Virus record (IMG/VR): IMGVR_UViG_3300011115_000374
Coordinates: 1 to 27,501 of that record
Origin: a virus
DNA length: 27,501 nt
Direction: 5' to 3' (one strand)
The notes below the pieces were generated by a model that was not told the origin of the DNA, searched no databases, and saw only the letters and a list, made by a program, of their open reading frames with translations. Below, piece after piece: positions 976-26,692 of this stretch (position 1 is the first letter of the stretch; each line of letters begins with the position of its first letter). Both the position numbers and the translations under genes were made by a program.

Positions 976-979
976 TCAT
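632..979 (-). CDS. Doubtful small ORF downstream of the methyltransferase
   Basis: An ATG at 979 overlaps the methyltransferase stop in an ATGA arrangement and opens 115 codons. The product is rich in Pro, Ala, Gly, Arg and Ser, with no transmembrane helix, no recognisable domain, and motifs such as PLFHSAWGRIGDAMRAAT. The frame runs through four of the five GC hairpins of this block, and its composition looks partly dictated by them. It recalls the style of hairpin-spanning phage ORFs of the Ash/Icd-like kind in enteric phages, but I cannot show homology. It may be a coupled gene or a chance frame over structured RNA. Confidence 0.3.
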   Translation of the reverse strand: MTTFSHTARGGCSSHIPAACGGLSASLPPLFHSAWGRIGDAMRAATNRNSGFVLDPRTPPARTGANRKTPGATHYRMSGRPSGTVCLRVIQAPPAIPNVPGANSIACVIGGPSPA

Positions 980-1968
980 TCGGCTGCAAGACCGAATAGA
1001 TCGCCAACCGATTGCTCGGCTTGGGCCAAGTTCTTGCCAGCCTGGCGCGCATATTCCGGCTTCAACTCAAACCCGAGATACCGGCGATATTGCTTGATTG
1101 CCTGATAGCCGGTGCTGCCTATGCCGTTGAATGGGTCCATCACAACATCACCGGGCTTGCTGTAAAGCCGCAGGCATTTGTCGATAACGTCCAGTTGCAG
1201 CGGGCATACGTGGCGTTCATCGCCAGCGGCTTTGATGCGGCTCAGAACGTTGCCCTGCTGAATGTCCATCCAGACCGGGCTTGCCAACTTCTGCCACTCG
1301 TAAACGTCAAACTCGGCAATCTTGACCAGATCGGCCAAAACATCATCAGGCGGGGTCTGCGATGCCAGCCCTTGCCGGTGCATTTCGTCAAGCCATTTGC
1401 GGGCAATGCGCAATGCCTCTTTGGTGTCACCGGGCGCGCAATGTTCAATGCGGTCTGGGTTGTCGCCGTCCTTGCGGAAAAACAGCATGTAGTCAGGCAT
1501 CCCGACCCGGTTCATTCCGCTGTCTTTGCGGATCTGCTTGTAAAGCAACCCAAGCGCCTTGGTGCGCTGCATCTCCACTACCGGGTCTTTCCAGATGGTG
1601 CTGCGCCCATGATAGATCAGCCCTGCATCGGTATGGGCCTTGATCAGATCCCCAGAGAAGTCCTGCAGGCCGATAGCCCCGTCACGGCCCTTGCGCATGG
1701 GCAGATCAGTGCAATGAACGCAGACCATCCGCCCAGGCTTCATGACGCGGGCAATAGCATCGGCAAAGAAGGCGTATTGGTTCAGAAACTTCTGACCGCC
1801 GCCCGCGTTGCCCAAGTCACGCTCACTGTCCGAATAGACAAACAGATCACCGAACGGCGGCGAAAAGATCGCACAATCCACGCTGCTTTCGGGCATCGCG
1901 TGCATTCCTTCGATGCAATCCGAATTGTGCAGCGCCCATCCGGCCCCTTGATATTCTGGCTGTTTCAT
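976..1968 (-). CDS. DNA methyltransferase, beta class (N6-adenine or N4-cytosine)
   Basis: A 330-aa amino-methyltransferase with the motif order of the beta class. Catalytic motif IV is SPPF at residues 36-39 and the AdoMet-binding motif I, DPFNGIGSTG, is near the C-terminus at 278-287, with the target-recognition region between. SPPF is commoner in N4-cytosine enzymes but also occurs in N6-adenine ones, so the base is not settled. The start chosen is the ATG at 1968, which overlaps the helicase stop (ATGA) and has GAGG upstream; an in-frame ATG at 1986 is less likely. Helicase plus methylase is a familiar phage pair, and here no restriction enzyme is adjacent, so it probably acts as an orphan methylase that marks phage DNA. 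Specificity cannot be read from the sequence. Confidence 0.93.
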   Translation of the reverse strand: MKQPEYQGAGWALHNSDCIEGMHAMPESSVDCAIFSPPFGDLFVYSDSERDLGNAGGGQKFLNQYAFFADAIARVMKPGRMVCVHCTDLPMRKGRDGAIGLQDFSGDLIKAHTDAGLIYHGRSTIWKDPVVEMQRTKALGLLYKQIRKDSGMNRVGMPDYMLFFRKDGDNPDRIEHCAPGDTKEALRIARKWLDEMHRQGLASQTPPDDVLADLVKIAEFDVYEWQKLASPVWMDIQQGNVLSRIKAAGDERHVCPLQLDVIDKCLRLYSKPGDVVMDPFNGIGSTGYQAIKQYRRYLGFELKPEYARQAGKNLAQAEQSVGDLFGLAAE

Positions 1969-3923
1969 TGTCCCGCCCTCACCCATTCAGGGAATGCCAG
2001 ATCAAGCGGCCTGTCATAGGCGACCCGGCGTGATGTTGTTGATTGTGCGTTGCGCATCGCATCGGCCATGCGGCGTTTCATTTCGTCGTGCTTGGCAGCC
2101 TTGGTATGAATAATCTCAATAATGGATGATTCAGTGTCACTGATCACAATATGAACATTGACCTGCCGCCCTTGGCCGAACCGCCAAACCCGCCGAATGC
2201 CTTGGTAGAAGGATTCGTAGCTGAAATTGACAGACGCGAAGATCACATTGCGGCAGTGCTGGAAGTTCATTCCAAAGCCGACGATTTTTGTTTTACTTAT
2301 CAGAACTGGCCGTTCACCATCGCACCATGCCAAGATGCGGCGTTCTTTTTCGTCTGGATCGTCCGAACCTCTCACTGAAAACGCGAGATTGCCAAACGCC
2401 ATTTCCAATGCGTCTTGCTCGTCATTTGTCTCGCAATAGATCAGCCACGGGTCAGCCGTTATGGCGCTCCAGGTATTCGATAGCACGGCGCAATCTTGTG
2501 GTATCGTCTCGCATTTTTCCGAGTGCGGTGTTGCAAGCGGTGCAGAGCAACTGCCGGACTTTTCCGGTTGCGTGGCAATGATCGACGTGAAGGATTTTGC
2601 CGCGCTTTTCTTCATGCTTGACGCCGCAAATGGCACAAGCCGATCCCTGATCTGCAAGCATTCGCTCGTAGTCAACTTGGGTGATCCCATAAGTTGATTT
2701 AAGGCGACCGTTCCTCCTGGATATAGCAGGTCTGCTTTTGGCGCTGGATTTGGCTTTTTCTGCGTATTCCGGGTCGGATGCGTATTTTGCGCGCCGATTG
2801 GCGTTGTTTCTGTCTCGCCGCTCTTTAGTGTTGGCAAACTTTTCTGGGTTGGCAATGTAGTATTGCCGCATGTATTCGGCGTTTTCTTCTGGCGTTCTGC
2901 CTTGGGATTTGCGCCGTTCGCGTTCTGCGTCGTCATCGTGGTATCGCTGTTTGCGGGCAGCGGCATATTCTGGCTTCCACGGCATTCGATATCTCCAATG
3001 TCAATTCTTGCCAGCGTGTTTCGGAACCCTTCAAAAGCAAGGGAAACCGCCATTTCGCAGCGTTGCTTCAGGGTCAGCCGCTTTTCCTCATGGAATGACG
3101 TGGCCGACATTTCAGGGATACGGAACAACATGCCTTCGGCAATGTTCGCCATCCGGTCCGCTGCAACGGTGTGGATGCGCCGATCTACATCGGGCAGAAC
3201 ATACCCGGCATCATCGCCGCCAAGGTCAGACGGCAGGGTTGCGCAACGCGACCAAGACGCAACCCACCCCCAGAAGTCCGCAACCGCATGGCCTTTCAGC
3301 CGCCACTCTTGCGAAGCCGTCGCGGTGTCATTGATGAACCACTTCGACAGCATCTCTTGCTGGCGCATGACCCCCAAAAACTCAGCATGGTTGCCTAGTT
3401 CGGTGTGATCGTTCGGGCTTGGTGTTGCCGTCGCTGCCAGCTTGTAATCCGTCTTGGCAAAGGCATCCTCGATCATGGCGCGGGTGCGGCCCGCATAGCT
3501 TTTCAGGATGCTGCTTTCATCCAAGACAACAGCGCCGAATGCAGCCGGGTCCAGCTTGGCAAGCCGCTCATAGTTCGCCACCATGACGCCTTGGCCGACT
3601 TCCGACTGTTCGCGGATTTGACGGGCATCAATGCCGAACTTCTGACCTTCCCGAACCATCTGACCGGCCACCGCAAGCGGGGTCAGGATCAACGATGGCT
3701 TGCCAGTTTCATCCGCGCATTGGCGGGCGAACTCCAACTCAATGAGGCTCTTGCCAAGGCCGGTGTCCAAAAACGCTGCCGACTTGCCAGCGTTCAGGGC
3801 AAAGTCCAGAACGGCAGATTGATGCACCTTGACGGCGCTATTTAGCGGACGCGGGGCAAAGCCGGTCTTGAAGGTGTTGCCAGCGCGGGCAGCGATGAAG
3901 GCGCGATATTTATCGAGGCTCAC
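1965..3923 (-). CDS. SNF2-type DNA helicase with an inserted segment
   Basis: A 652-aa superfamily 2 helicase of the SNF2-like phage type. Visible motifs are Walker A DTGLGKS (53-59), motif II LDESS (about 134-138), motif III ATATPSP (about 164-170), the motif V region SKTKIVGFGMNFQHC, and motif VI QGIRRVWRFGQGR (about 574-586). Residues about 298-490 do not look helicase-like; they are rich in Thr, Asn, Lys and Pro, and this is the stretch where an HNH endonuclease gene is encoded in another frame. Removing it leaves roughly 460 aa, close to the usual size of this family. The start chosen is GTG at 3923, overlapping the upstream stop (GTGA) with AAAGG in front. Likely role: duplex unwinding or remodelling in phage replication or recombination. 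Whether the enlarged protein is active cannot be told. Confidence 0.92.
   Translation of the reverse strand: MSLDKYRAFIAARAGNTFKTGFAPRPLNSAVKVHQSAVLDFALNAGKSAAFLDTGLGKSLIELEFARQCADETGKPSLILTPLAVAGQMVREGQKFGIDARQIREQSEVGQGVMVANYERLAKLDPAAFGAVVLDESSILKSYAGRTRAMIEDAFAKTDYKLAATATPSPNDHTELGNHAEFLGVMRQQEMLSKWFINDTATASQEWRLKGHAVADFWGWVASWSRCATLPSDLGGDDAGYVLPDVDRRIHTVAADRMANIAEGMLFRIPEMSATSFHEEKRLTLKQRCEMAVSLAFEGFRNTLARIDIGDIECRGSQNMPLPANSDTTMTTQNANGANPKAERQKKTPNTCGNTTLPTQKSLPTLKSGETETTPIGAQNTHPTRNTQKKPNPAPKADLLYPGGTVALNQLMGSPKLTTSECLQIRDRLVPFAASSMKKSAAKSFTSIIATQPEKSGSCSAPLATPHSEKCETIPQDCAVLSNTWSAITADPWLIYCETNDEQDALEMAFGNLAFSVRGSDDPDEKERRILAWCDGERPVLISKTKIVGFGMNFQHCRNVIFASVNFSYESFYQGIRRVWRFGQGRQVNVHIVISDTESSIIEIIHTKAAKHDEMKRRMADAMRNAQSTTSRRVAYDRPLDLAFPEWVRAGQ
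2452..2985 (-). CDS. HNH homing endonuclease (endonuclease VII type) nested in the helicase gene
   Basis: A complete 177-aa HNH protein encoded on the same strand as the helicase but in a different frame. The C-terminal half has the endonuclease VII layout: zinc Cys at 117 and 120, the active-site block HVDHCHATGK at 133-142, and Cys 148 and 151 before N152. The N-terminal half is charged, with NPEKF and DPEYAEKAK elements seen in such mobile HNH proteins. It has its own ribosome site, GGAG seven bases before the ATG. Its TGA stop lies within the helicase codons for the conserved-looking ADPWLIYC stretch, so nothing is left over at the 3' side. This looks like a mobile endonuclease gene that landed in the helicase gene. 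It is too compact to include an obvious intron. Confidence 0.93.
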   Translation of the reverse strand: MPWKPEYAAARKQRYHDDDAERERRKSQGRTPEENAEYMRQYYIANPEKFANTKERRDRNNANRRAKYASDPEYAEKAKSSAKSRPAISRRNGRLKSTYGITQVDYERMLADQGSACAICGVKHEEKRGKILHVDHCHATGKVRQLLCTACNTALGKMRDDTTRLRRAIEYLERHNG

Positions 3924-4114
3924 GCTGCACCTTTGAAGGTAAAGCAATCGCGGGGCAGAGGCCGCCCTGCGCGGTTTTCAAGCATGTTGTACCAGGCGGC
4001 GGGCAGCTTGTTGCCGTCCTCGGCCTTGCGGACGGCATCAATTTTGACGCTGACCAGATCAGCGACCGCTTGGCGACCGCCTAGGAATGTGATGATGTCG
4101 GATGCTGTTTTCAT
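3920..4114 (-). CDS. Small Cro-like HTH DNA-binding protein
   Basis: A 64-aa protein, MKTASDIITFLGGRQAVADL..., followed by VKIDAVRKAEDGNKLPAAWY and AGRPLPRDCFTFKGAA. The pattern (a GGRQAVADL helix, a V-x-x-DAV recognition helix, then LPAAWY...GRPLP) is that of short phage HTH proteins related to Cro and YdaS, sometimes called carph-isopro domains. It is the first gene of the leftward set, next to two palindromes and a divergent promoter, so it is the best candidate for the regulator of this switch. The ATG at 4114 is chosen because a sigma70-like -10 element ends seven bases before it; an in-frame GTG at 4129 lies inside that promoter. The binding site assignment is inference. Confidence 0.8.
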   Translation of the reverse strand: MKTASDIITFLGGRQAVADLVSVKIDAVRKAEDGNKLPAAWYNMLENRAGRPLPRDCFTFKGAA

Positions 4115-9620: not shown

Positions 9621-10031
9621 TCATTTTGCCGGATAGACCCGGCGATCAAGCTGCCAATGCGGGCCGTCCTTGAAGCTTCGCCACGAACCGCCCCAGACAA
9701 TGGCCACATCTTCCTTGTCAGCAGCGGCCTTAATGACAGGCGCCAGCTTGTAGTAGAGCGGCCATGCGTACATCTCCTCGACCTCGACCTTGCCGTTCTT
9801 GTCGATGTCCACATAGGGGACCAGATCGACGGCATGGCCGGTGAGGTGACGGCTGTTGAGGATATTCGACGCACCGACGCGCACAAGTTCACGCTGGCGT
9901 TCAATGGTGCGCAGACCTTCAGTCACGACAAAAGCAAACGGTGCTTCCTGCAATGCCCGGTCCATGACACGGCGCAGATCTGGGTGAATACCCGTCAGGT
10001 TTCGAAGGCTGCGCGCGTCCCACTGTCTCAT
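9621..10031 (-). CDS. M15-family peptidase endolysin
   Basis: A 136-aa enzyme with the M15 (VanY/D-Ala-D-Ala carboxypeptidase-like) signature SRHLTGHAVDL: S60, H62, G65 and D69 fit the SxHxxGxAxD pattern, and H125 in DGPHWQL is the third zinc ligand. Phage members cut peptide bonds in peptidoglycan. No signal peptide is seen, so export would depend on the holin. The length matches single-domain phage M15 endolysins. The start overlaps the upstream stop (ATGA). Substrate bond not determined from sequence. Confidence 0.93.
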   Translation of the reverse strand: MRQWDARSLRNLTGIHPDLRRVMDRALQEAPFAFVVTEGLRTIERQRELVRVGASNILNSRHLTGHAVDLVPYVDIDKNGKVEVEEMYAWPLYYKLAPVIKAAADKEDVAIVWGGSWRSFKDGPHWQLDRRVYPAK

Positions 10032-10261
10032 TTGCTGCCAACCCGCGAAATCAGGGACTTTATATCATCGCGGATCTCGGACAGCATCTTGTTGGTTTCC
10101 TCGCGCGCCTGCTTGGACGTCTCCAAGTCTTCCTTGCGCTGATACCACAGCCGCTTGATCTCCTTGCTGTTCTCAACGCTGCGCGCTTCCAGGCGGATCA
10201 GCCAGACGATGGTTGCCACGAAAGCAACGGCAAGCGGCCAAAATGTGCGGATTATTTCCAT
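10028..10261 (-). CDS. Membrane-anchored coiled-coil protein of the lysis module
   Basis: A 77-aa protein with an N-terminal membrane helix (FWPLAVAFVATIVWLIRL) followed by a charged helix (NSKEIKRLWYQRKEDLETSK and on to LSEIRDDIKSLISRV), probably a coiled coil. The ATG at 10261 has GGAG six bases upstream; an in-frame TTG at 10273 overlaps that site and is rejected. It lies between the transglycosylase and endolysin genes. It could be a second holin/antiholin-like or a spanin-like protein. Topology is clear, family is not. Confidence 0.78.
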   Translation of the reverse strand: MEIIRTFWPLAVAFVATIVWLIRLEARSVENSKEIKRLWYQRKEDLETSKQAREETNKMLSEIRDDIKSLISRVGSK

Positions 10262-10277
10262 CTTAGTCTCCAAACCG

Positions 10278-10832
10278 TTACTTCAAATTGAACTGCTGCA
10301 AGATAGCATAAGGGTCATATGCTGCCAGTGCATCTGACTGCGTGCTGCGCAATTGTGGGATTGTGAACGGCGGCATCCGAGCCGTCGATGCAATGCCGTA
10401 GTCATTCCCAGCAGGCTGCCCCATCGTCAACGGGAGGTTCGCCGACCGGCCATTGAAGGCAGTATCAGCCACGCCCGTGCCGAGGATCTTGGCAACGTAG
10501 TTCTGCGTTTCCTTGAAGGGCGGCATGCCACCATATGCGCGCACATTGCCTGGCCCAGCGTTATAGGCGGCCAGAGCCGTGGGCATGTCGCCGAACTCGT
10601 CCTGCATCATCCTGAGATATCGCGCCCCGCCGCGCAGGTTTTGTTCAGGGTCCATCGGGTCAACGCCGAGATCAGCAGCAGTGCCAGGCATTAATTGAGC
10701 CAGACCCAACGCACCCGCCGATGATACTGCGTCAGCGTTGAAACTGCTTTCGGCTTCAACCAGACGCACGAACACGTCGGGATCAATGCCCTCCTCGATC
10801 GCTATCTGTTTTGCCAGCTCTCTATAGTCCAT
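10278..10832 (-). CDS. SLT-type lytic transglycosylase
   Basis: A 184-aa enzyme with the SLT/Slt70 catalytic fold. The catalytic Glu is E28 in VEAESSFN, followed by SSAGALGLAQLMPGTA (37-52), NLRGGARYL (66-74) and AYNAGPGNV (89-97). Such enzymes cleave glycan strands with anhydro-ring formation. After the domain the tail (GTGVADTAFNGRSANLPL...) is low in charge and carries no anchor. The gene lies between virion and lysis genes, so it may work in lysis or be a virion muramidase used at entry. The ATG at 10832 has AAGGGGAAG upstream; a GTG at 10838 is too close to that site. Confidence 0.92.
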   Translation of the reverse strand: MDYRELAKQIAIEEGIDPDVFVRLVEAESSFNADAVSSAGALGLAQLMPGTAADLGVDPMDPEQNLRGGARYLRMMQDEFGDMPTALAAYNAGPGNVRAYGGMPPFKETQNYVAKILGTGVADTAFNGRSANLPLTMGQPAGNDYGIASTARMPPFTIPQLRSTQSDALAAYDPYAILQQFNLK

Positions 10833-10834
10833 TG

Positions 10835-11131
10835 TCACTTCCCCTTATTGCGTGCGGAGATTGCCTTGGCTTTTCTGCGCGCGTCGGCTTTGCTGGATGC
10901 GCCCCACGCCTTCAAAGACAGCAGCAGGCGCGTTGGTTCGCCATCCTTGCGTTCAGGCCCCGGCATGTTGCCCATGCGCGCCAGGAACGACGCCCTGCGA
11001 GGGTTGTTGCCAGACTTCACCGGGGCTTTCAGGTTCATGCCTTCAGCCTTCGCAGATGCGCGCCCCTTGGCGTTCAAGCCGCCGCTGGCAGACTTGCCTT
11101 CTTTGCGCATCCACGCTGGTGTCTTGGACAT
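10835..11131 (-). CDS. DUF6321-like small basic phage protein
   Basis: A 98-aa very basic protein (MSKTPAWMRKEGKSASGGLN...). The runs GGLNAKGRASAKAEGMNLKA and NPRRASFLARMGNMPGPERK are characteristic of a conserved phage family, which I recall as DUF6321. The high Arg/Lys content and Gly-rich loops suggest binding to nucleic acid or to another virion or terminase component, but the role is not known. It starts in a TGATG overlap with the preceding small gene, and AGAAGG precedes the ATG. The stop is two bases before the transglycosylase start. Confidence 0.85.
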   Translation of the reverse strand: MSKTPAWMRKEGKSASGGLNAKGRASAKAEGMNLKAPVKSGNNPRRASFLARMGNMPGPERKDGEPTRLLLSLKAWGASSKADARRKAKAISARNKGK

Positions 11132-11289
11132 CACTTGCCCTTCTTCTTCGGCTTGGCCGTCACAGCAGATGCTCTGAAAGCCGCCGCTGTGGGTGCGCCC
11201 TTGGTGCCAGGCTTGCGCATCTTTTCATTGCTGCCCAGCTTGATGCGGCGCCTTTTGGCTGCGATGTTGGCGTAAAGACCCTTTGCCAT
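11131..11289 (-). CDS. Small basic phage protein (52 aa)
   Basis: A 52-aa frame read from the ATG at 11289: MAKGLYANIAAKRRRIKLGS, then NEKMRKPGTKGAPTAAAFRA, ending in Lys-rich KPKKKGK. This MAKGLYANI...KPGTKGAPTA pattern is a known small conserved phage protein of unknown function, often beside the DUF6321-type gene that follows here. It starts four bases after the upstream stop codon begins and has no strong ribosome site, so it depends on coupling. Its stop overlaps the next start (TGATG). Confidence 0.82.
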   Translation of the reverse strand: MAKGLYANIAAKRRRIKLGSNEKMRKPGTKGAPTAAAFRASAVTAKPKKKGK

Positions 11290-11290
11290 A

Positions 11291-11584
11291 TCAATAACGA
11301 GGCGGCCAGTTGTCGTAGCCGTTCAGCGTGATCGTGGCAGATCCAGACGTGTAGGCACCTGTCTTGATGCCAGCCCGATAAAAGTTCTTCATCGGGTCAT
11401 AGCCGACTTCCTCGACCGGTATGGTCCAGGTGTCAACATCGCGCCAAACCGTGCCATCGGTCGAGCGTTGCACCGTCACCGTGGCGGCGAATGTCCCCGA
11501 GATTGACAGATTGAAATCACCGATGATGAGGATGGCATCGGTGAAGGTGTTCTGGGCCGATAGGGTCTTGGTTGTCGCGGGCAT
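11291..11584 (-). CDS. Small beta-rich virion protein
   Basis: A 97-aa protein of alternating strands (FNLSISGTFAATVTVQRSTD, WRDVDTWTIPVEEVGYDP, YRAGIKTGAYTSGSATITLN). It resembles small phage structural beta-sandwich proteins with the TVTVQRSTDGTVW...D element. A strong AGGAGGCGATC site precedes the ATG. It follows the repetitive beta protein and lies at the boundary between virion and lysis genes. A role in the tail or as decoration is inferred from fold style and position. Confidence 0.75.
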   Translation of the reverse strand: MPATTKTLSAQNTFTDAILIIGDFNLSISGTFAATVTVQRSTDGTVWRDVDTWTIPVEEVGYDPMKNFYRAGIKTGAYTSGSATITLNGYDNWPPRY

Positions 11585-11596
11585 GATCGCCTCCTG

Positions 11597-13051
11597 TCAG
11601 AAAATGGGTCGGAAGATTGACGTGAACACCTGGCTGAAAACCCTCCTGACAGCAGGGAAGAAATCCCAGCCCAAGTTGTTCCCTGCGTCCACGTTACCTG
11701 ATTTCAGAAACGCATTCCAATTTGCGCCGCCGGTAGCAGAGATGTCTTTGATCGAGACGTTGGACACCTCAACCGTCCCGGTGCTGTTGCTCAACGTGGC
11801 GCGCGTGCCTGCTGGGCTGCTATCCAGCGTGATGAGGTTGCCAGCGGTGCCAGAGACGCCAAAGGCAGCAACCGTCTGCGTCGTGCTGGCAGCAATCGTG
11901 ATGGTTGCGGGCTGCACGCTGTTCGTGATGTTTGCAAACGTATTGCTTGACTCAATCAAGAGCGTGCCAGCACCGCCTTGGTTTAGTGTAGGCCATGCTT
12001 TTCCACCGCCCACAAAATTCTTTGCGCTGGCACTGTTCATGCTAATGACACCAGTTGCAGACGAAACTGTCAGCCCCGTGACGTTTGTATTACTTTCAAA
12101 GTTTCCAGACAGCACAGACCAAGTTCCGCTGCCGATGCTCAATGTCTTTGTCCCAGCACCAAGCCCAAAGTCACCGAAGCTGACATTCTGACCATTGGCG
12201 TCCAGTGTTCCATTGGTCAGCGTCAATTTCCGGCCGCTAGATATGGCAAACGACCCTGTAAGCTGCCAAGACCCACCAACTCCGTTGAATGTTACAGGCG
12301 CATTTATGGTCTTCCCGAATAAGTTAATCTGATGCGGGCCACCTGTTGCGTTGAACGTCTGAAGAGTGTTTGTTCCGCTATCGACGGTCATAGTCGCATT
12401 CAGGATCAGGCCGCCGCGATATGTGGATGCGAAAGACCCAAGCGCCCAAGTTCCACCAAAACCTGTGAAATCCAGATCGCCGTTTGAGTTGCCTGTTGTT
12501 GTAACAATGTCGGTTCCAGCAGTGACAAATAGAGCAATGCGAGTGGCATATGTGCCAGAACCATTGTCCAGGTTGATCGTCCGCGTTCCGACAGCCCCCG
12601 CATATGTAGAGAAAACGCGAGGCGTACCGGTGATCGTGGCATTCGTTCGGTTGCCTATTGTGAAAGCAATGCCGTTGTTTCCGGTGACTGTTATACTGCC
12701 AGTTCCGAAGGCCAGCGTCCTAACATTGGCATTGGCTCCCAAGAATGTCAGAGACGTTAGGTTGAAGCTGTTGAGGTTGATCGTCCCCTGAGTAAACGTA
12801 AACGCTCCAGCGAAGGTTGGGCTTCCAGAGAAAGACAGCGTGATGTCGGCTTTGTTGACCGTGCAGGCAAGGCAGGCAGCAGTAGAGGCAACAGTGACAG
12901 TTGCAGTTGCTCCGCTGTTTGCGTCAAAAATTACATTGTCAGCACTGGTTGGAATGCCAGCAGCGCCAGCGCCGCCAGATGACAGAGACCATCTAGCATT
13001 GCTGGCGTTATCCCAAGTTCCAGTTCCGCCGACCCAGTAATACATTGCCAT
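11597..13051 (-). CDS. Repetitive beta-strand protein, likely tail appendage or adhesin
   Basis: A 484-aa protein rich in Thr, Asn, Gly and Ser. It begins MAMYYWVGGTGTWDNASNAR and IPTSADNVIFDANSG, a start widely seen in phage and metagenomic surface proteins, and continues with irregular repeats of short strands (TLTNGTLDANGQNVSFGDFG, WSVLSGNFESNTNVTGLTVS). This suggests a beta-helix or beta-solenoid. The last 20 residues, PAVRRVFSQVFTSIFRPIF, are amphipathic and different. GAGGA precedes the ATG. It directly follows the tailspike gene, so it may be a second host-contact protein or a spike partner. No enzymatic motif seen. Confidence 0.75.
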   Translation of the reverse strand: MAMYYWVGGTGTWDNASNARWSLSSGGAGAAGIPTSADNVIFDANSGATATVTVASTAACLACTVNKADITLSFSGSPTFAGAFTFTQGTINLNSFNLTSLTFLGANANVRTLAFGTGSITVTGNNGIAFTIGNRTNATITGTPRVFSTYAGAVGTRTINLDNGSGTYATRIALFVTAGTDIVTTTGNSNGDLDFTGFGGTWALGSFASTYRGGLILNATMTVDSGTNTLQTFNATGGPHQINLFGKTINAPVTFNGVGGSWQLTGSFAISSGRKLTLTNGTLDANGQNVSFGDFGLGAGTKTLSIGSGTWSVLSGNFESNTNVTGLTVSSATGVISMNSASAKNFVGGGKAWPTLNQGGAGTLLIESSNTFANITNSVQPATITIAASTTQTVAAFGVSGTAGNLITLDSSPAGTRATLSNSTGTVEVSNVSIKDISATGGANWNAFLKSGNVDAGNNLGWDFFPAVRRVFSQVFTSIFRPIF

Positions 13052-13061
13052 GCCGGGTTCC

Positions 13062-14966
13062 TCAGATGATGTTCATGGTGAAGTTGAAATCCATGTCAGT
13101 AGCCGCACCTGCAGTGTTGGCAAAGTAGATTTCAAACGTGTTGCTCGACAAGGCCATGCCAGAGCAATAGCCGAGGCCAGCAGCGCCAGATGGGGTTGCC
13201 ACCACCGCATAGGTATTTGGAGAAAGCGCGAGATTGTGCGTGACAACATAAATCCCCGTTCCTGTTTTAGTACATGACCAACCACGGGGCAGTCGCAAAG
13301 AAGTTCCAGCACTTGCAACGCGGCCAGAAAATTGCCCGAGTGGGATTTGCCACCAATTTGTTCCATCAGAAACCGCCAGAGATGGCAGCGAACTTCCCGT
13401 TCCGTCTGCGCAATACTGAATACCGTTTCTAAACCTTGACGCGCTAGGCAAAGACGCAAAAGGAATTTGGTGGTATGATCCGATTGGTGCAAAAACAGAA
13501 ACCGAAAGACCTACCAGACCACCAGTAGTGTCACAAAGCAAATTGCCACCAGCATCAAGCACTTGAGAGTTGCCAGTTGCCACCCATAAACGTGCCGCAC
13601 TAGAAACATACGGCGCATAGTCCTTAAACCCGCAACCGCTGATAGACACCAAGCTAGGGTTTGCACCATCCAGTAGAATGTTGTTCGTGACATAGCGTGT
13701 GTCCGAAAATCTTAAAAATGAGCATCCAGAAAAGGTGTTCATAGATACGTTCGTGACAGCAGTTGTGGTGCTTACAATCCAAACGTCAGCCTTGCCATTG
13801 TTGTTTTCAATATACGTGCCGTTCAAGTTAATGCCGACCGCGCCTTCTGAACCGGGCTGCTCAACATAAAGCCCCCATGAATTTGGATCGGCCAGAATCC
13901 CTGTGTACCCGTTACTCTCGATAGACCCACCGATGTAGTTAAACGTAGATGGTTTGATCAGCGATCCGCCATAAATCTGGTTGTTCAGCGTGATGACGCC
14001 ACGGAAGGATATGTTGTTTGGGTGGCTTCGTGTCCCCTTCAGAAATTTGAAACCGTAGTTATTCAATCGAATGCTGCCGGTAGAGAATGACCCAGACAAA
14101 CAATCTGTGCCGTAGATACCATATTCAAAAAATGACATATCAAAATTTTGAATATTAAAGTAAACCGACTGATCCATCTTCAAGCCGATAGAACCCGCAT
14201 TGCGTGCATAGTTTGCCTTGAGAAGGCCAATGCCTGAAAATGTGAAATATGTATGCCATCCAGCGCCAGCACCACCAATAAAGCTAATGCAAGCGCCATT
14301 ATGGTCAGACGCAATCTGGCACGAGGCTGGGTCTGCTCCTTCAAGCGCAATGCCAAACATCCCACCGCTAGTGGGGTCTTCGGTGTTAAACGAGCGATCA
14401 ATCACGAGCGGTGCGGTGGTACGATACCGTCCAGGCGGGAAGAAAAGGCCAACACCGTTTGCCACACAATAATTGATTGCGCTTTGTATTGCCGCCGTGT
14501 CATCTGTCCCAGTTCCCGGCACAGATTGAGTGCCGTTCCAGTCGCCCACAGCGCCAAAGTCGTTGACAGAGACGAAATCCTGCAAACGAGAGGTCAGGAT
14601 GCGAGAAACTGCGCCCGTCCCGCCTTGGTTATAAGTCATCTGATTGGTGTTGACGAACGACGCAGGGATTATGCCATAGCCGACCGGGCTGTAGATCACC
14701 AACTCGCTGTTTTTGTTGCGCACGGTGACCGAAAATTGTTCGTTGGCATAGATCAACGCCGGGCTGCCATTGCGCATGACGTAACCGTTTGACGTGCGCA
14801 GCGGCTGGGCTGCTGGCTGCGTCAGGGTGCTGTCATAGTAAACTTGGATCGGGTTGGTTTCCGGGTTCAAGTTCGCCGTGCCGAAATACAGATAGCCCGC
14901 ATCGAGCGGCGATCCGTTCTTGTCGGTGAAAATCGGATACGGCGGGGTAAGTTGCGTTAGCGGCAT
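13062..14966 (-). CDS. Tailspike with P22-type head-binding domain
   Basis: A 634-aa protein. Residues 1 to about 105 (PPYPIFTDKNGSPLDAGYLY, NPIQVYYDST, SELVIYSPVGYG) match the P22 tailspike head-binding fold that attaches to the virion. Residues about 130-200 (VSVNDFGAVGDWNG, GTDDTAAIQSAINYC, FFPPGRYRTT) are a pectate-lyase-3 start of a right-handed beta-helix, with about 300 residues of short strands after it. The C-terminal portion is likely for trimerisation. Such spikes bind and often cleave host surface polysaccharide; the exact active residues cannot be assigned. P22 gp9 is 667 aa. The beta-helix part looks more A+T-rich than its neighbours, compatible with exchange. AAGGA precedes the ATG. 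Confidence 0.9.
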   Translation of the reverse strand: MPLTQLTPPYPIFTDKNGSPLDAGYLYFGTANLNPETNPIQVYYDSTLTQPAAQPLRTSNGYVMRNGSPALIYANEQFSVTVRNKNSELVIYSPVGYGIIPASFVNTNQMTYNQGGTGAVSRILTSRLQDFVSVNDFGAVGDWNGTQSVPGTGTDDTAAIQSAINYCVANGVGLFFPPGRYRTTAPLVIDRSFNTEDPTSGGMFGIALEGADPASCQIASDHNGACISFIGGAGAGWHTYFTFSGIGLLKANYARNAGSIGLKMDQSVYFNIQNFDMSFFEYGIYGTDCLSGSFSTGSIRLNNYGFKFLKGTRSHPNNISFRGVITLNNQIYGGSLIKPSTFNYIGGSIESNGYTGILADPNSWGLYVEQPGSEGAVGINLNGTYIENNNGKADVWIVSTTTAVTNVSMNTFSGCSFLRFSDTRYVTNNILLDGANPSLVSISGCGFKDYAPYVSSAARLWVATGNSQVLDAGGNLLCDTTGGLVGLSVSVFAPIGSYHQIPFASLPSASRFRNGIQYCADGTGSSLPSLAVSDGTNWWQIPLGQFSGRVASAGTSLRLPRGWSCTKTGTGIYVVTHNLALSPNTYAVVATPSGAAGLGYCSGMALSSNTFEIYFANTAGAATDMDFNFTMNII

Positions 14967-15018
14967 TGGGCATCCTTTCGCGTGACTTTTACCACGAAAT
15001 GCATGGACGGGTATAGTA

Positions 15019-16920
15019 TCATTGCGGACCTGCCTGTGGCTGATCTTCAGCCGCCTTCTCTGCGCGCAGAGCCGCCGTTAGCTGCTTGATGAGTTCCTGC
15101 TCTTGCTTGCTGCCTCTGGCGACCTGCGGCAGCTTCAACAGGATGTTTCGCACAGGCGCGCTTTCATACAGACGGGCAATGCCGCCAATGGTTGCACCGC
15201 CAACGATGCCAGCGCCAGCATTTCCTAGGATGTCGGTCAAGATAGCCGCGCCGACAACAGGCACAGCCTGCACGCCAGTCGGAGGTGAAACGCCAGCGCG
15301 CCCAGCCTGCTCAGTCATCTTCAGCGCGCGGATCAGCCCCTCAACGGACTTCAGATCTTCCCCAGAGAAAAACACCCCGATGGGTGCGCCAAGGCGTATC
15401 AACTGACGCTTGAACTGATCGGGGCTTAGGTTCTCAAAGTTTCCGCCGACCTTGCTGAAAGCTTCCTGCAAAACAGCCGTGCGCGCATTGCTCTTGCCTT
15501 CAGCGGACAGGCCTCGATAAAGCGCCTTCACATCGCTGGGTTTGGCCGAGAACAGCAACGTGCGGACAACTTCAGGCGATGTGTCACCCTTGGCCAAAGC
15601 AGCTTTCATCGCCCCAAGTTCAAGTTCGCCGACCATCATGGCAAGCTGCCTGTTGGCAATGTTCCACTTGTCAAAGTCACGGCGCTGCCCGTTGGCTTTG
15701 ATGTAGTCTGCCATATCCTCGCGCAGCGGTGCATAGATGCGGCTTAGAACCTTCTCGCCCTCACTACGCACAGCCGCCAAGCTTGGATCAGTAAACGCTT
15801 CGCCGATCTGCTTACGCAGAACCTCGATAGTCGCCAAAGGCTGTCCTTGCTGGACCACTTGCGTCTGACCATTCGGAAGGTTGACTTCGCGCGTGCCTGT
15901 AAGATCGTCACGCCAAGTGATCAGACGATCGATCACGGGCTTAAACTGCGTCGGGCTGATGCTGTTCAGGCGTGCAATTTCCTCGTCGATCTTGGCAACA
16001 GATTTTGCAACTGGCACAGTGCTATTCGGCTGCGACAGGCGGTCAATCACCTCGGTCTTCATGCCGGTGTATTTTTTCAGGTTTTCGCCACGACGTGCCA
16101 GAAGATCTTTGGCCACATTCGAGATGATGGTGTTGTCTGCGGCTGATGCCTCGGTGACGCCATAGTTGCGCAAAAGATCAACCGATGCATCAATTCGTTC
16201 TTTCTGCTGCGCAGCACGCGGGCCACCAGTTCCAGCGCCGGGGATCATCTCGCCAGTGCGTTGCAACCATCGGCCAGCAAAGGTCGTCGGCTGGCGCACG
16301 TCAGTAGTCATCACGCGGATACCTAGATCTTCTGCCTCGCGCACAGCGGCTGGCAAGGCCGCCGAAGGCGTTTCTGTTCTAACCCCAGCGGCACGTCCGC
16401 CAGCGACGCCACCAACCAAGCCAGCCGCCAGTTGCGCGGCCATGCCGCCGCCTGCTTCTGCTGTGGCCTGTGCCGCAGCGCCAGCCGTGCCGCCTGCCAC
16501 AGCCTGTGCGCCAGGCTGGGCTGCAAGCTGGGTGGCAACTTGTCTTGCGCCACCCGTCAACACGTCAGCGCCATACTGAGCCATTTTAGCTTGGCCACCA
16601 GCACCAACCGCACCCTCACTGATCGCCCCGATAACACGCTCCATAGCGCTCTCAGGTTCAGGCACGCCTAGATCCGTCAACACTCGCTTGACCTGTTCAC
16701 GCAGTGGCTGCACTTCGGTTCCGAAAAGGTAGTTCTGCACTGCGGCAATGGGGTCATATACAATGCCACCAATGCCAGCCAAACCTTGCGCACCATAACG
16801 TGCTGTCAGACCAAGTTGCCGCTCCAGATCGGCAGTCATGCCTTGGGGCTTTTGTAGCTCGCCTTTGGCCGTCGCCTCGGCAATTGCAACAGCAAGCGCG
16901 ATTGGGTCTAGATCTGCCAT
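15019..16920 (-). CDS. gp16-like DNA ejection protein
   Basis: A 633-aa internal virion protein. The N-terminus is helical (MADLDPIALAVAIAEATAKG), a Gly/Ala-rich segment follows at about 105-190 (AGGTAGAAAQATAEAGGGMA), the middle is long and helical, and a second hydrophobic Gly-rich part lies near the end (VVGAAILTDILGNAGAGIVG). Hydrophobic Gly/Ala segments fit proteins that are ejected and enter membranes. It is last of three genes in the P22 gp7-gp20-gp16 positions, and P22 gp16 is 609 aa. The ATG at 16920 overlaps the upstream TAA (TAATG). Assigned by order, size and composition; no enzymatic motif seen. Confidence 0.75.
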   Translation of the reverse strand: MADLDPIALAVAIAEATAKGELQKPQGMTADLERQLGLTARYGAQGLAGIGGIVYDPIAAVQNYLFGTEVQPLREQVKRVLTDLGVPEPESAMERVIGAISEGAVGAGGQAKMAQYGADVLTGGARQVATQLAAQPGAQAVAGGTAGAAAQATAEAGGGMAAQLAAGLVGGVAGGRAAGVRTETPSAALPAAVREAEDLGIRVMTTDVRQPTTFAGRWLQRTGEMIPGAGTGGPRAAQQKERIDASVDLLRNYGVTEASAADNTIISNVAKDLLARRGENLKKYTGMKTEVIDRLSQPNSTVPVAKSVAKIDEEIARLNSISPTQFKPVIDRLITWRDDLTGTREVNLPNGQTQVVQQGQPLATIEVLRKQIGEAFTDPSLAAVRSEGEKVLSRIYAPLREDMADYIKANGQRRDFDKWNIANRQLAMMVGELELGAMKAALAKGDTSPEVVRTLLFSAKPSDVKALYRGLSAEGKSNARTAVLQEAFSKVGGNFENLSPDQFKRQLIRLGAPIGVFFSGEDLKSVEGLIRALKMTEQAGRAGVSPPTGVQAVPVVGAAILTDILGNAGAGIVGGATIGGIARLYESAPVRNILLKLPQVARGSKQEQELIKQLTAALRAEKAAEDQPQAGPQ

Positions 16921-18275
16921 TATTGCCCCATTTTCTCTTGGTAAACTTTCCAAGCAAATTCACGGAGATCAGGGGCCAGTGCCATGACTTTGGGATCGGC
17001 CATGAATGCAGCCTTTGCATCGCCGCCAGCAGGCGCCGGGGCAGCGGCAGGCGCAGGGGCAGTGCCTGCAGTGCCTGCAGTCGCAGCAGTCGCAGCACGC
17101 GCACCGAACACGTTGATCGGGTCAAGCCCATAGTTATCGACAATCAGTTGATAGCTTTGCTGAACGCCCTGCTCCTGCGCTTTAGCGGCTCTCAGATATT
17201 CCCCGGCAAGGCGCGTGAAGTCAGCGCGCTGCCGTTCGCTTAGGAATTGCCCGTCCTCAACCTTTGCCGCAATGCCAGTCAAGCGCGCCAGCAGACCGCC
17301 CGCGTTGGCAGCAGTCGCGAATTCAGTTTCACGCACCACCGATCCTGGGTCCAGCATCTTCATGAACGACGTAACAAGCGCGATGTCACCTGCACCGCTC
17401 TGATCCAGTGACGACGTTTCAATGATTGAGAAATTGCGTTCAGCCGCACCCAGATCCTCCGTGCGCTTTGCATATTCACCGCGCAGGCGGGCTTCCTCTG
17501 CAATCTTCTGCTGCAGCGTCAAACCTTCTTCCTTTGCTTTGGTTTCCAGATCGATAGCCGCATCAAGAACGCTTTGCGGGATGAGACCGGCTTCCACGTC
17601 TTGCGCAATCTTGCCCAGAGGCGACGCACCTTCTGGTACTGCCTGATCCTGCCCCGCCAGCTTGAGGATCGTCTCGGCCTGCTTGTCGTCAATCGCGCGG
17701 GTTGCAACCAAGGTGCCAAGCATGGAAACCCCGTATGCGCGGGGGTCTGCCTCAAGAATGGCACGATTCGCGCGCAATGCTTGCGCCTCGGCCATAGCCT
17801 CTGGCGTGCCTGTATTCTCCGCAGCCGCAATGCGCTCATCAAACAATGCCAGCGCAGCGGCGGGGTTTCCTGTCAGCGCAGGAATAGTTGTTTCAATGTT
17901 GAACTGAACTTGAGGCTGCCGCTTTGCAGATTCAATCGCACTGAATGCTGTTGCAAATTCGGCAAAGGTATCAGCGTTGCCAAGCGCATATTGGTTCAAC
18001 GCATCAACGGTCAACTTGCCATCAATCGCACTTTGGCGAAGCTGCATCAACTGCGCCTGCATGGCATCAGCCTTGGCGCGCTCCTTGGCAGCCGCCGCGC
18101 GTTGCTCCTCAGCAGCCGCCGCCGCACGGGATTCTTGAGCCGCACGCAGAGCCATCGCCTGCGACCGTTCTTGCATGATTTGGGTTTGCTCAATGTCCTG
18201 GCGACCCAAGCCATATCCCATCAGCGCCTGCTCAATGGGGCTTTTCACGTCGAGCATGTAGTTGATCGGTTCCAT
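16920..18275 (-). CDS. gp20-like DNA ejection protein
   Basis: A 451-aa mostly helical protein. From about residue 30 it has a Gln/Ala/Arg-rich helix (RSQAMALRAAQESRAAAAAE and on to QLMQLRQSAIDGKL), likely a long coiled coil. An Ala/Pro/Gly/Thr low-complexity linker lies near residue 410 (AATAATAGTAGTAPAPAAAP), matching a short DNA repeat at 17054-17095, and the end is helical. P22 gp20 is 471 aa. The ATG at 18275 has GGAGG about nine bases upstream and overlaps the upstream stop (TAATG); an earlier in-frame start at 18407 is rejected. Called by position between gp7- and gp16-like genes. Confidence 0.75.
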   Translation of the reverse strand: MEPINYMLDVKSPIEQALMGYGLGRQDIEQTQIMQERSQAMALRAAQESRAAAAAEEQRAAAAKERAKADAMQAQLMQLRQSAIDGKLTVDALNQYALGNADTFAEFATAFSAIESAKRQPQVQFNIETTIPALTGNPAAALALFDERIAAAENTGTPEAMAEAQALRANRAILEADPRAYGVSMLGTLVATRAIDDKQAETILKLAGQDQAVPEGASPLGKIAQDVEAGLIPQSVLDAAIDLETKAKEEGLTLQQKIAEEARLRGEYAKRTEDLGAAERNFSIIETSSLDQSGAGDIALVTSFMKMLDPGSVVRETEFATAANAGGLLARLTGIAAKVEDGQFLSERQRADFTRLAGEYLRAAKAQEQGVQQSYQLIVDNYGLDPINVFGARAATAATAGTAGTAPAPAAAPAPAGGDAKAAFMADPKVMALAPDLREFAWKVYQEKMGQ

Positions 18276-18961
18276 TAGAACGCGCCTCCGTTGTAGAACA
18301 TGCCCTGACCGAATGTCAGCGGCGAGGTGGCTCCTTGAGGCGTGTATCCCTGATAAGCGGCGCCACGCCCAGCAAGCATTCCAACGTTTCCAATCAGATT
18401 GCCCCAAGTCTGGCCCTGCGCCAGCGCATTACCGGCCTGTGCTGCGCCGACTTGGCCATACAGGTTCGCAATGTTCGCTCCGGTCTGCTGGCCAAAACCT
18501 GCCTGCCCGGTCGCAGCCGCTTGCCCTGCGCTGGCAAGGCCGCCTAGGCGGCTGTATTGCTGATTGATAAGACCGCTCAAAATCTCGGGCCGGAACTTGG
18601 CAAGAGCGCCCTGCACGTTGCCGCCACGAAGGCCGCCCGTGGCCGCTGCATTTTGAAGGATTGACTCCTCGCCTTGCCGGGTCAGTGCCTGAAACTCTGG
18701 CCCCTGCTCCAAAGCAGTTATCGCTGCGCGCTGCGCATCAACACCACCAGCCCCAACAAGCGCAGCCTGCTGAGACAACGCGCTAGATCCTGTTTCAATG
18801 TAAGGCTTTAGAAGCTGCTGGATGGCGTCAAACTGGCGGCGCTGCTCTTCAACACCTTTGTCTGCAGCCTCAACCTGTGCTGTTGAGGCTTTGCTTGCAG
18901 CTTTTGACTGCACGATGCCGCTGATAACTGATCCGCCAAGTACTGCTGCTGCGACCCACAT
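18275..18961 (-). CDS. gp7-like DNA ejection protein
   Basis: A 228-aa protein starting MWVAAAVLGGSVISGIVQSK, an N-terminal hydrophobic Gly-containing helix, followed by a helical region (STAQVEAADKGVEEQRRQFD) and a Gly/Ala/Gln-rich C-terminal half (AGQAAATGQAGFGQQTGANI). This pattern occurs in many podophage internal proteins, and P22 gp7 is 229 aa. Such proteins leave the capsid with the DNA and help form the trans-envelope channel. It overlaps both neighbours by TAATG junctions. Confidence 0.8.
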   Translation of the reverse strand: MWVAAAVLGGSVISGIVQSKAASKASTAQVEAADKGVEEQRRQFDAIQQLLKPYIETGSSALSQQAALVGAGGVDAQRAAITALEQGPEFQALTRQGEESILQNAAATGGLRGGNVQGALAKFRPEILSGLINQQYSRLGGLASAGQAAATGQAGFGQQTGANIANLYGQVGAAQAGNALAQGQTWGNLIGNVGMLAGRGAAYQGYTPQGATSPLTFGQGMFYNGGAF

Positions 18962-19509
18962 TAGTTTGACCTCTCAAGACATTTTCTTGTTTCGTCATCA
19001 ATTGCTTCTACAATTGCTTCTACGATGGAAATTTCAATCTGCTTATCATTCCATGCTTCGCTCTTATCGATGAACTCGTCTTCTATCTCAGATAAATCTG
19101 TTTTGTCTGTCGCGTGGATGTTCTGAAAGATACAGTCTTCAATAGAATAACCAAACTTTCGGCCCGGTTCACTGATGAATATATATGGCCCCTCGATGAC
19201 CTTTGCCTGACCGTTGACAAAAACAGCCATCTTTCCCTTGAGCAATACATTCATCGTTTGCTTTTTGTGAGCATGACCCATGATGTAAGTCCCAGCAGGA
19301 ATAAAACCCTCGCGGATGTATATCCCTGCCCCAAAATGGTGCACAACCGGGCAATCAACCTGCGGCGCAGAAAGCATCATCGCCTCGATGTGATCGAGCG
19401 ATGTCGCAACAGCGATGTCGTGATTGACCTGCACCAACGCGCCCTCTGCGGAACATGGCTGCTGGATGCCGTTGGTCTCAGCGTCGGCAGTATCGCGCAA
19501 ATCCTTCAT
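18961..19509 (-). CDS. Cupin-fold protein in the virion module
   Basis: A 182-aa protein with a cupin barrel at about 55-140: FGAGIYIREGFIPAGTYIMG, then HAHKKQTMNVLLKGKM, the conserved HxH segment of a metal-binding cupin, and GPYIFISEPGRKFGYS. Cupins of this sort occur in several podophages near virion genes; their role is unknown. The C-terminal tail is acidic and carries the repeat VEAIVEAI, encoded by a perfect 12-bp tandem duplication at 18999-19022. The C-terminal coding part is visibly more A+T-rich than neighbours. GAGGG lies about 10 bases before the ATG. Confidence 0.84.
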   Translation of the reverse strand: MKDLRDTADAETNGIQQPCSAEGALVQVNHDIAVATSLDHIEAMMLSAPQVDCPVVHHFGAGIYIREGFIPAGTYIMGHAHKKQTMNVLLKGKMAVFVNGQAKVIEGPYIFISEPGRKFGYSIEDCIFQNIHATDKTDLSEIEDEFIDKSEAWNDKQIEISIVEAIVEAIDDETRKCLERSN

Positions 19510-19521
19510 TTTGCCAAGCCC

Positions 19522-19893
19522 TCAGTCATCTTCTTCCCACGCCTGGCAAGTGCGCAGGTTGTGACAGACGAAATCAAACTTTCCGCAATAGCCGCGACCA
19601 CCGCCGTCCATGTCAAACTTGTCAAGCGGGATGGCTTCCATCTTGGCTTGGAACATAGGGTCGTTCTGGAAGTATTCGCAGTTGGCGCAAAGACGCCGCC
19701 GCGCTTCCTTCTCATCCATGCCCCAAGCCTTGCCGACCGACGCCCAGAACTCCTTGTTGTCATTCGGTTCAACCGAAGCCTTCTCGGGGCCAAGCTGCCA
19801 TTCATCAATCACCATCTGGCGATTCTTGCGGTTCTGCGATGCAGAAACGATCTTTGTGGTCGAAAGACCAAACTCAATCATCATGTCGTCCAT
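19522..19893 (-). CDS. Cys-rich putative metal-binding protein
   Basis: A 123-aa protein. The C-terminal half has five cysteines in RRLCANCEYFQND and GYCGKFDFVCHNLRTCQAWE, that is CxxC, then CxxxxxxC and a last Cys before an aromatic. The spacing recalls small iron-sulphur or zinc-ribbon proteins with CxYF...C...C elements, but five rather than four Cys leaves the ligand set open. The N-terminal half is polar. GGAGG precedes the ATG and the start overlaps the upstream stop (TAATG). It sits between structural genes, so a virion or assembly function is possible. Confidence 0.75.
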   Translation of the reverse strand: MDDMMIEFGLSTTKIVSASQNRKNRQMVIDEWQLGPEKASVEPNDNKEFWASVGKAWGMDEKEARRRLCANCEYFQNDPMFQAKMEAIPLDKFDMDGGGRGYCGKFDFVCHNLRTCQAWEEDD

Positions 19894-20228
19894 TATGAAA
19901 CCTCCCGGCCTGAACAGCGAATTGTGAGAGACGTGGCCGCACTGGCCAGCGTCGAGATGAAGCCACCAGCCTCAAGCACATGACCAACCAACTCAGGGCA
20001 GGTATAGGTCTCGTCTGGCACGATGGTGCGGGCATCGATGATCCGGTTGCTTGCCCCGGCAGTCCCCAGAACCGTCACAAGGTTTACCGACAGCGCGACG
20101 TTGCTGGCGCTGGTATTGGTGACGGTGAACTTGTCGATGATCGCCTTGACCGCCGTAGCGGTGTATTGCGCGGTCTGCGCACTCTCAGCCTGCTTGGCTG
20201 GGATCAGAACCTTTGGCGTGACTGCCAT
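19893..20228 (-). CDS. Small beta-rich virion protein
   Basis: A 111-aa protein (MAVTPKVLIPAKQAESAQTA...) of short beta strands (FTVTNTSASNVALSVNLVTV and SLTIRCSGREV). It looks like a small phage structural domain that displays an Ig-like or beta-sandwich fold. It lies at the place of P22 gene 14, but similarity to gp14 is not evident. A near-perfect AAGGAGGTCGGT lies ahead of the ATG, one of the strongest ribosome sites in the window, so the product may be needed in many copies. Confidence 0.72.
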   Translation of the reverse strand: MAVTPKVLIPAKQAESAQTAQYTATAVKAIIDKFTVTNTSASNVALSVNLVTVLGTAGASNRIIDARTIVPDETYTCPELVGHVLEAGGFISTLASAATSLTIRCSGREVS

Positions 20229-20238
20229 ACCGACCTCC

Positions 20239-20766
20239 TTAGACTATGCTTGTGATGATGCCGTCAACGACGGTTACTGTTTGAATGCCTGCGACGAATG
20301 ACCCAGACGCGCCGATATTCTCAAACGCCATTGATCCAAGCCCAGAAACAGCAATCGTGATCGAGCCATCTGCGTTGGTTATGGAAATGTTTGCGCCTGG
20401 CGTGATCGTATTGGCCAACCAGACGCGCCTTGTGGCATCGTAGATTATAACCATGCCCGCCGCTGCGAACGGAGCATCCACGTCTTGCAACCGATCCAAG
20501 CGCGGATCTTGCGGGGCTGGCTGCATTGCAGCGAGATTGGCAAGCTGTTCAGCATTCGTAGCGTTGGCCAAAGCGACCTCGGCCTTGTTGTCTGCCGATC
20601 CGGTGGAATAGACGTTGTCCGAGATCAATTGCGTCAGCGTTGCAATCTCGGATGGCGTCAATGTGCCAGCGACTTGGAAGAGCCGTTCAATGGCACGTAT
20701 CGCATCGGGATCATTGCCGACGAAGCGGGAAATCTGGTTTCGATTGAGAGTGAAAGGATCAGCCAT
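20239..20766 (-). CDS. Short protein at the tail-needle position
   Basis: A 175-aa protein that follows the gp10-like gene, exactly the place of gp26 in P22. The N-terminal part is helical (LNRNQISRFVGNDPDAIRAI) and includes possible heptads (ADNKAEVALANATNAEQLAN). The C-terminal part has short fibre-like strands (VIIYDATRRVWLANTITPGA, ISITNADGSITIAVSG) ending in TVTVVDGIITSIV, an ending common in short tail-fibre proteins. A helical stem plus fibre-like tip fits a plug or needle, but no homology to gp26 (233 aa) can be shown. TGATG overlap with the upstream gene. Confidence 0.62.
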   Translation of the reverse strand: MADPFTLNRNQISRFVGNDPDAIRAIERLFQVAGTLTPSEIATLTQLISDNVYSTGSADNKAEVALANATNAEQLANLAAMQPAPQDPRLDRLQDVDAPFAAAGMVIIYDATRRVWLANTITPGANISITNADGSITIAVSGLGSMAFENIGASGSFVAGIQTVTVVDGIITSIV

Positions 20767-22166: not shown

Positions 22167-22175
22167 TGCTGCCCC

Positions 22176-23108: not shown

Positions 23109-23124
23109 GTCTGTGATCCTTTGG

Positions 23125-23571: not shown

Positions 23572-23575
23572 CGCG

Positions 23576-24437: not shown

Positions 24438-24464
24438 GGCACTATCCCATTGTCAAAGGTGAAA

Positions 24465-24486: not shown

Positions 24487-24498
24487 GATGCTATCAGA

Positions 24499-25794: not shown

Positions 25795-25818
25795 TTCCGT
25801 GGTCCTTCATATGGGGGT

Positions 25819-26667: not shown

Positions 26668-26692
26668 GCGATCCTCGCGATTTTCTCACCCA

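Follow-up and report, generated by a model that had tools for sequence, protein, structure and literature searches.

An overprinted endonuclease VII-family HNH gene between the RecA lobes of a phage SNF2-type helicase

How can a complete nuclease gene lie within the coding sequence of a helicase and leave the helicase frame open from end to end? The question is posed by the window studied here (the whole 27,501-nucleotide stretch of virus record IMGVR_UViG_3300011115_000374), in which a 534-bp HNH ORF (minus strand, 2985..2452; 177 aa, running from ATG to TGA) is nested in another frame of a helicase ORF (minus strand, 3947..1965). The initial annotation had proposed that a whole endonuclease VII-type HNH gene lies inside an uninterrupted helicase frame, and the two ORFs, together with a Pfam assignment to PF02945, bear this out. 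We describe below the anatomy of the locus, its filled and empty relatives, and the constraint acting on each of the two frames.

A nuclease gene nested in a helicase gene

The helicase ORF (1965..3947, minus strand) spans 660 codons when counted from a TTG and stays open across the insert; an in-frame GTG at 3923 is the likelier start, relatives beginning with MSL, VSL or MGL. A Pfam scan returned Helicase_C (PF00271) above cutoff (E 1.9e-7) and SNF2-rel_dom (PF00176) below it (E 0.0023), and the best Foldseek matches of the predicted fold are SNF2 remodellers, such that two RecA lobes, helicase motifs and an SNF2 fold place the protein among the SNF2-type enzymes. Lobe 1 (3033..3947, minus strand) contains Walker A (DTGLGKS), LDESS and TATP, and is nearest to that of an insert-free relative, L004 (95% aa identity, ~0.9 at the nucleotide level); lobe 2 (1965..2456, minus strand) contains motifs IV-VI (PWLIYCETNDEQ ... 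RRVWRFGQ). The two halves flanking the insert share one frame and retain intact motifs. Downstream, an N6/N4 DNA methylase gene (976..1986, minus strand) overlaps the helicase end, and the same neighbour is found in L001-L003 and in Gordonia phages. Farther along the window, 9621-27499 is a phage structural and lysis region with all genes on the minus strand (endolysin, tail spike-like, DNA transfer protein, head closure, major head protein, scaffold and portal products).

Comparison with L004 delimits an insert of 192 codons (576 bp; 2457..3032, minus strand, with borders uncertain by ~10 nt), a multiple of three as the common frame of the two helicase halves had led the initial annotation to expect. 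This segment is absent from L004 and ~130 other relatives, and it lies immediately before the PW[LIV][VI][WYF]C strand that opens lobe 2, i.e., between both RecA lobes. AlphaFold2 assigns the lobes a pLDDT mostly of 80–98, with insert residues 320–421 and 451–483 below 50; the insert read in the helicase frame is thus predicted to form a mostly disordered loop between the lobes, although a short helix predicted at 427–448 means that it may not be wholly featureless. The earlier suggestion of a flexible loop between the RecA domains therefore holds, and 133 empty relatives have no such linker.

The nested gene itself (2452..2985, minus strand) is read such that position 3 of a helicase codon is position 1 of an HNH codon. 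Its Endonuclease_7 domain (PF02945, E 1.7e-27, above cutoff; 2467..2706, minus strand) includes zinc Cys pairs and a DHCH...CN motif, and the catalytic and zinc residues (DHCH, the CxxC pairs and CN) are invariant across nine HNH sequences. Structural relatives include Hpy99I and T4 EndoVII, and the AlphaFold2 model of the HNH frame has a mean pLDDT of 85. The TGA stop overlaps helicase codons A498/D499. The initial annotation had placed this stop within conserved-looking host codons (ADPW), and the arrangement is real in five loci, where TGA is made by nnT GA(C/A/G) directly before the conserved PW codons; the position is not universal, in that the HNH frame runs further in others. In L003/L086, L085, L087 and L088 it extends beyond the insert into conserved lobe-2 codons (PW..WC..N), and because of this overrun the HNH C-terminus would there also be encoded by conserved helicase codons.

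Only ~47 nt of the insert precede the HNH start (5′ leader, 2986..3032, minus strand). Relatives have in common a AAACTGGCA box in this leader, found directly or ~20–30 nt before the HNH start in L001, L002, L081, L085, L087, L088 and L099; the box resembles helicase exon codons (E/K-L-A) and might represent a target remnant or a duplication. A ribosome-site-like GGAG, already noted in the initial annotation, is present at 2993..2996 (minus strand), 7 nt before the ATG. The longer GGAGAT of the window also precedes the HNH of L001, L002 and L087, and GGAG precedes the different HNH of L132; a clear Shine-Dalgarno is absent before the HNH start in L088, L091, L081, L099 and L146. Upstream of its start the HNH frame is open for only a few codons in most loci. 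Given the local ATG or GTG, the GGAG of the window, L001, L002, L087 and L132, and the closure of the HNH frame just upstream in most loci, translation of the HNH would probably proceed by internal initiation.

Filled and empty alleles

Relatives were gathered from scans of virus contigs, phage records and genome contigs (some loci carrying two locus numbers). Twelve distinct filled loci, i.e., those with an EndoVII HNH gene at this helicase site, were identified: ten virus contigs (the window, L001, L002, L003, L085, L087, L088, L099, L132 and L146, one filled virus contig having 43% GC), a Sphingobium MAG (L091) and the Gordonia phage Squiddly (L081), to which Gordonia phage Malisha (L082) is nearly identical. 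They span 43–70% GC overall, and their HNH genes share ~50–80% identity. The fetched loci further include 133 empty relatives, with a clean length gap between the filled and empty classes. A whole-genome search of the 27.5-kb virus record found no copy besides the window's own. In the Gordonia records MN096370 (L081) and OP434458 (L082) the nested 176-aa HNH gene (3403-3933) is unannotated and only the long helicase is listed.

The initial annotation had asked whether related phages always hold the insert in frame, and the helicase frame is indeed open in 12/12 filled loci, the third frame holding 1–15 stops in each. This count is to be read with the route by which loci were found: those from the HNH query (L083-L088, L091, L099) were picked without regard to an open host frame, whereas L132 and L146 came from a helicase match spanning the insert, a selection that favours open frames. 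The latter two loci contain a different, shorter EndoVII HNH (3357-3800 in L132, 3357-3806 in L146) that is devoid of the MPWKPEYA start and occupies the same site in the other alternative frame, with the helicase again open; they apparently represent an independent colonisation of the site.

Two close filled/empty pairs inform on mobility. Nucleotide identity between the window and empty L004 is ~0.9 up to the insert, falls to 0.48–0.62 for ~100 codons beyond it, and then returns to 0.82–0.96; Squiddly and the empty phage Holliday display the same three-part pattern. In these pairs the insert is accompanied by 150–350 bp of downstream helicase. The first ~350 bp of window lobe 2 are of the "filled" clade type, unlike L004, and its final ~50 codons are again L004-like, which delimits a putative recombination or co-conversion tract (2112..3032, minus strand) within which the insert and ~350 bp of downstream helicase would have been replaced together. 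Both pairs (window/L004 and Squiddly/Holliday) thus combine filled/empty polymorphism with co-converted flanks, as in homing, and the pattern is the expected mark of an element copied along with its 3′ flank, such as homing with co-conversion would leave.

Trees of the two lobes (built by a quick method, with change counts compared to shuffles) are in keeping with this. In the lobe-1 tree filled rows are scattered, requiring 9 changes against a shuffled mean of 10.3; in the lobe-2 tree the empties are separated from a single clade (support 94) that unites the window, L001, L002, L003 and L085, and the filled rows need 6 changes, a number as low as which was reached in 0/500 shuffles. Filled and empty alleles alternate among close relatives. 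Adaptation to the insert could account in part for the way filled loci group by lobe 2; recombination is favoured over adaptation because identity returns to ~0.9 at the 3′ end. From the nuclease family and the recombination tracts we infer that the HNH would cut empty alleles site-specifically. The tract, in showing mobility, upholds the initial annotation's view of a frame-compatible, overprinted mobile gene. Following the WC strand, we also observe EQ[DE] as a common feature of the filled helicases, in place of the ES of most empties; the difference may be a signature of the co-converted flank or of the site that the nuclease targets.

Selection on the two frames

To what extent an open helicase frame is to be expected by chance was modelled by replacing HNH codons with synonyms sampled at the codon frequencies of the helicase. 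For the window copy alone, 2.0 helicase-frame stops are expected and the probability of none is 0.07, such that the earlier argument from the unlikelihood of a single open copy falls short, and it is the comparative data that carry the case. Per copy, the expectation is 0.8–4.1 stops (with a probability of no stop of up to 0.43 in a GC-rich copy); the product of the 12 single-copy probabilities is ~1e-15, a figure overstated since the loci share ancestry.

Stop avoidance in the helicase frame, which the initial annotation had proposed to measure, is evident in codon context. In the offset-2 set, the helicase frame acquires a stop wherever xTG precedes A or xTA precedes A/G: Leu/Val xTG stands at 0/23 before A versus 38/114 elsewhere (p=5e-4), and xTA at 0/106 before A/G versus 10/85 elsewhere (p=2e-4). 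In the offset-1 set it is NNT followed by AA, AG or GA that would form such a stop, and NNT stands at 0/63 in this context versus 43/163 elsewhere (p=2e-7); all three p-values overstate independence, the codon counts being pooled from related sequences. The context groups were tested after the frames had been seen to be open, a point answered in part by a reciprocal control in which neither frame set avoids the stop-forming context of the other. As a control, a search with the L132 HNH recovered 72 virus EndoVII loci. An alternative frame is open even across the short matched segment in 9 of them, and none lies within a longer ORF apart from the helicase copy itself; in another seven free HNH relatives, both alternative frames are interrupted by stops. 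The zero stops in 12 diverged loci and the reciprocal codon-context avoidance together exclude, at the level of sequence comparison, chance openness across these loci.

Beyond openness, the two frames differ in constraint. Between the window and L001, dN/dS is 0.14/1.31 in lobe 1 and 0.15/1.40 in the HNH frame, with lobe 2 at a dN of 0.17 and saturated dS; the insert read in the helicase frame gives 0.32/0.24, and dN/dS exceeds 1 in this reading in most pairs. By the measure of substitution rates, the HNH and both helicase lobes are under purifying selection. We looked for selection on the helicase-frame peptide in distant pairs, relative to the expectation from HNH constraint, and found none beyond that of the third frame (mean z 0.96 versus 1.29). 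Since the helicase-frame identity of the insert exceeds the HNH expectation no more than that of the untranslated third frame, the insert is, on these comparisons, selected in the helicase frame for openness only and not for sequence. The selection that the initial annotation had envisaged in this frame stands as stop avoidance, and does not extend to the insert sequence otherwise.

The locus is, with high probability, best described as an overprinted, splicing-free homing-type element, comprising an EndoVII HNH gene in the segment that joins the RecA lobes of a phage SNF2-type helicase. Its anatomy, the repeated open frames, the stop avoidance, the empty alleles and the recombination tracts are read directly from the compared loci. 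In the mechanism that we propose, an EndoVII-family HNH gene would have invaded the joint between the two lobes; the HNH would be translated in one frame from its own internal start (ATG, with GGAG before it), and the same RNA would be read straight through in the helicase frame to give a working helicase in which ~190 additional residues would be retained as a mostly disordered loop. Host function would survive because the insert is a multiple of three, the site tolerates a loop, and the codon contexts never form a helicase-frame stop. Like other homing endonucleases, the HNH would then act on a co-infecting phage whose helicase allele is empty: this allele would be cut and, on repair templated by the filled one, would acquire the insert together with flanking, mainly 3′, helicase sequence.

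Several other readings of the locus were weighed. One is that of a domesticated dual-coding gene, whose helicase-frame loop has gained a function (e.g., DNA binding or regulation) and whose HNH serves the phage and not homing. Domestication would accord with an arrangement kept across very diverged phages, with the predicted helix at 427–448, and with an MPWKPEYA-type HNH N-terminus found at this helicase site only; we nevertheless regard it as unlikely, given that helicase-frame residues are no more conserved than those of the third frame, that dN/dS there mostly exceeds 1, and that close relatives alternate between filled and empty alleles.

Removal of the insert from the mRNA as a group I or II intron with an HNH gene, rendering the open helicase frame incidental, is very improbable. 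Whilst HNH genes are common in phage introns and relatives without the insert exist, an intron needs no open helicase frame, yet stops are avoided in 12/12 loci; moreover, the ~47 nt outside the HNH ORF leave no room for a ribozyme core, the insert RNA is not unusually stable (z -1.45), and Rfam gave no match even at E<=5 for the window region, nor at gathering score for nine loci. Removal from the protein, as an intein or mini-intein whose HNH is encoded in a different frame, we consider scarcely credible: the precedent of the Gordonia phage Nordenberg terminase shows that such an arrangement exists, but here only ~16 helicase residues lie outside the HNH span, inspection of the translations shows no block A, B, F or G motifs, the AlphaFold2 model leaves most of the helicase-frame insert disordered, and a Pfam scan of the window helicase was without a Hint or intein domain (the same library detects one in the Nordenberg terminase). 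These results agree with the initial annotation's view that the segment is neither intron nor intein. An alternative frame that merely happens to be open, in a recent lesion of a dying helicase, has the single-copy probabilities above in its favour and is equally hard to credit in view of 12/12 open frames at ~50–80% HNH identity, the reciprocal codon-context avoidance, and purifying selection on lobe 2 downstream of the insert.

Other candidates were set aside separately. A frameshift or dead helicase is ruled out by the single frame of both lobes and by purifying selection, and an assembly or metagenome artefact by two isolate phage genomes with the same arrangement. Entry into the HNH by translational bypass or frameshift need not be invoked: in most loci the HNH frame extends only a few codons ahead of its start, nor would bypass depend on the helicase frame being open. 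Suspected nested HNH genes in Klebsiella ZCKP3, Yersinia WX2 and Cyanophage PP proved to be ordinary genes with stops in both alternative frames.

Relation to known nested and homing nucleases

On balance we favour a wider reading, in which introns and inteins are joined by overprinted homing genes as a third general means by which a mobile nuclease can inhabit a coding gene: unrelated HNH families would repeatedly settle loop-tolerant sites in either alternative frame, kept without splicing by selection for stop-free host-frame contexts, the helicase site having been colonised at least twice, in two frames, in phages of widely different bacteria. So read, what had been a single-lineage curiosity (the ShiLan domain of mycobacteriophage methylases) would become a recurrent mechanism with measurable selection, in which codon choice keeps the host frame open, the contexts avoided change with the frame in use, and the 3′ flank travels with the element. 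The locus also offers a clean natural case of overlap, one frame bearing sequence constraint and the other only "no stop", and a warning for annotation, since the Gordonia phage records give the long helicase alone and miss the nuclease gene.

Gene-splitting homing endonucleases, such as mobE in Aeh1 nrdA, likewise settle inside an essential gene and do not rely on splicing; in that case the host gene is divided into two parts that are translated separately, whereas the window helicase frame is unbroken. Free-standing phage EndoVII/HNH genes (T4 endonuclease VII, T7-like gp13.5) and T4-type homing genes share the nuclease family PF02945 but sit between genes, and the controls have stops in their alternative frames. 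In Gordonia phage Nordenberg (NC_055777, L095) the terminase at 514-2907 contains an intein (PF14890, E 1.9e-11), and an EndoVII HNH (~1380-1844) is encoded in another frame of that intein, the host frame staying open; the HNH search also matches the terminase gene of Charming, Tangent, BobBob, Rofo, Fosterous and Angelicage. A 2025 preprint by Gosselin on actinophage inteins may already cover the Gordonia terminase case.

The closest counterparts are two out-of-frame HNH genes described by Arsenault, Gosselin and Gogarten (PMC11855218, 2025): the ShiLan domain, whose host gene is a methylase of mycobacteriophages, and an HNH hidden within Pacc40 gp60. The latter (sequence NC_011287, L100) is alike in having a hidden HNH at frame offset 2, in a helicase homologous to that of the window (36% aa) and fused to a methylase; it differs in that the HNH follows an RPSDI motif, at ~residue 242 in window helicase numbering, and belongs to phrog_374 and not to endonuclease VII.

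The ShiLan domain and the helicase insert both place an HNH in an alternative frame of a stop-free host frame. Each has a small leader, ends its HNH at the 3′ border, lacks signals of an intron or intein, shows a disjunct distribution among related phages and is predicted to form a loop in the host protein. For the helicase insert we find each feature of the ShiLan type, namely a same-strand, other-frame HNH, an open host frame (12/12), insert-free homologues with disjunct distribution, and no splicing signals. The ShiLan HNH is a Pfam HNH_3 with a sub-cutoff zinc-finger match, whereas that of the window is an EndoVII, and BLASTP gave no homology between the two (E 2.4); they are of the same kind by architecture, not by descent. 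ShiLan has a methylase host gene, mycobacterial hosts and a proposed leaderless GTG initiation with no RBS reported, in contrast to the helicase host gene and the ATG with GGAG seen here. The helicase HNH joins an already published out-of-frame kind and founds no new category. New here are the EndoVII nuclease family, the helicase host gene, the linker site, and phages outside actinophages across 43–70% GC, as well as recombination tracts and, with reference to the part of that paper drawn on (in which neither a stop-avoidance test nor a second frame appears), the use of two frames at a single site and a test of stop avoidance backed by a reciprocal control.
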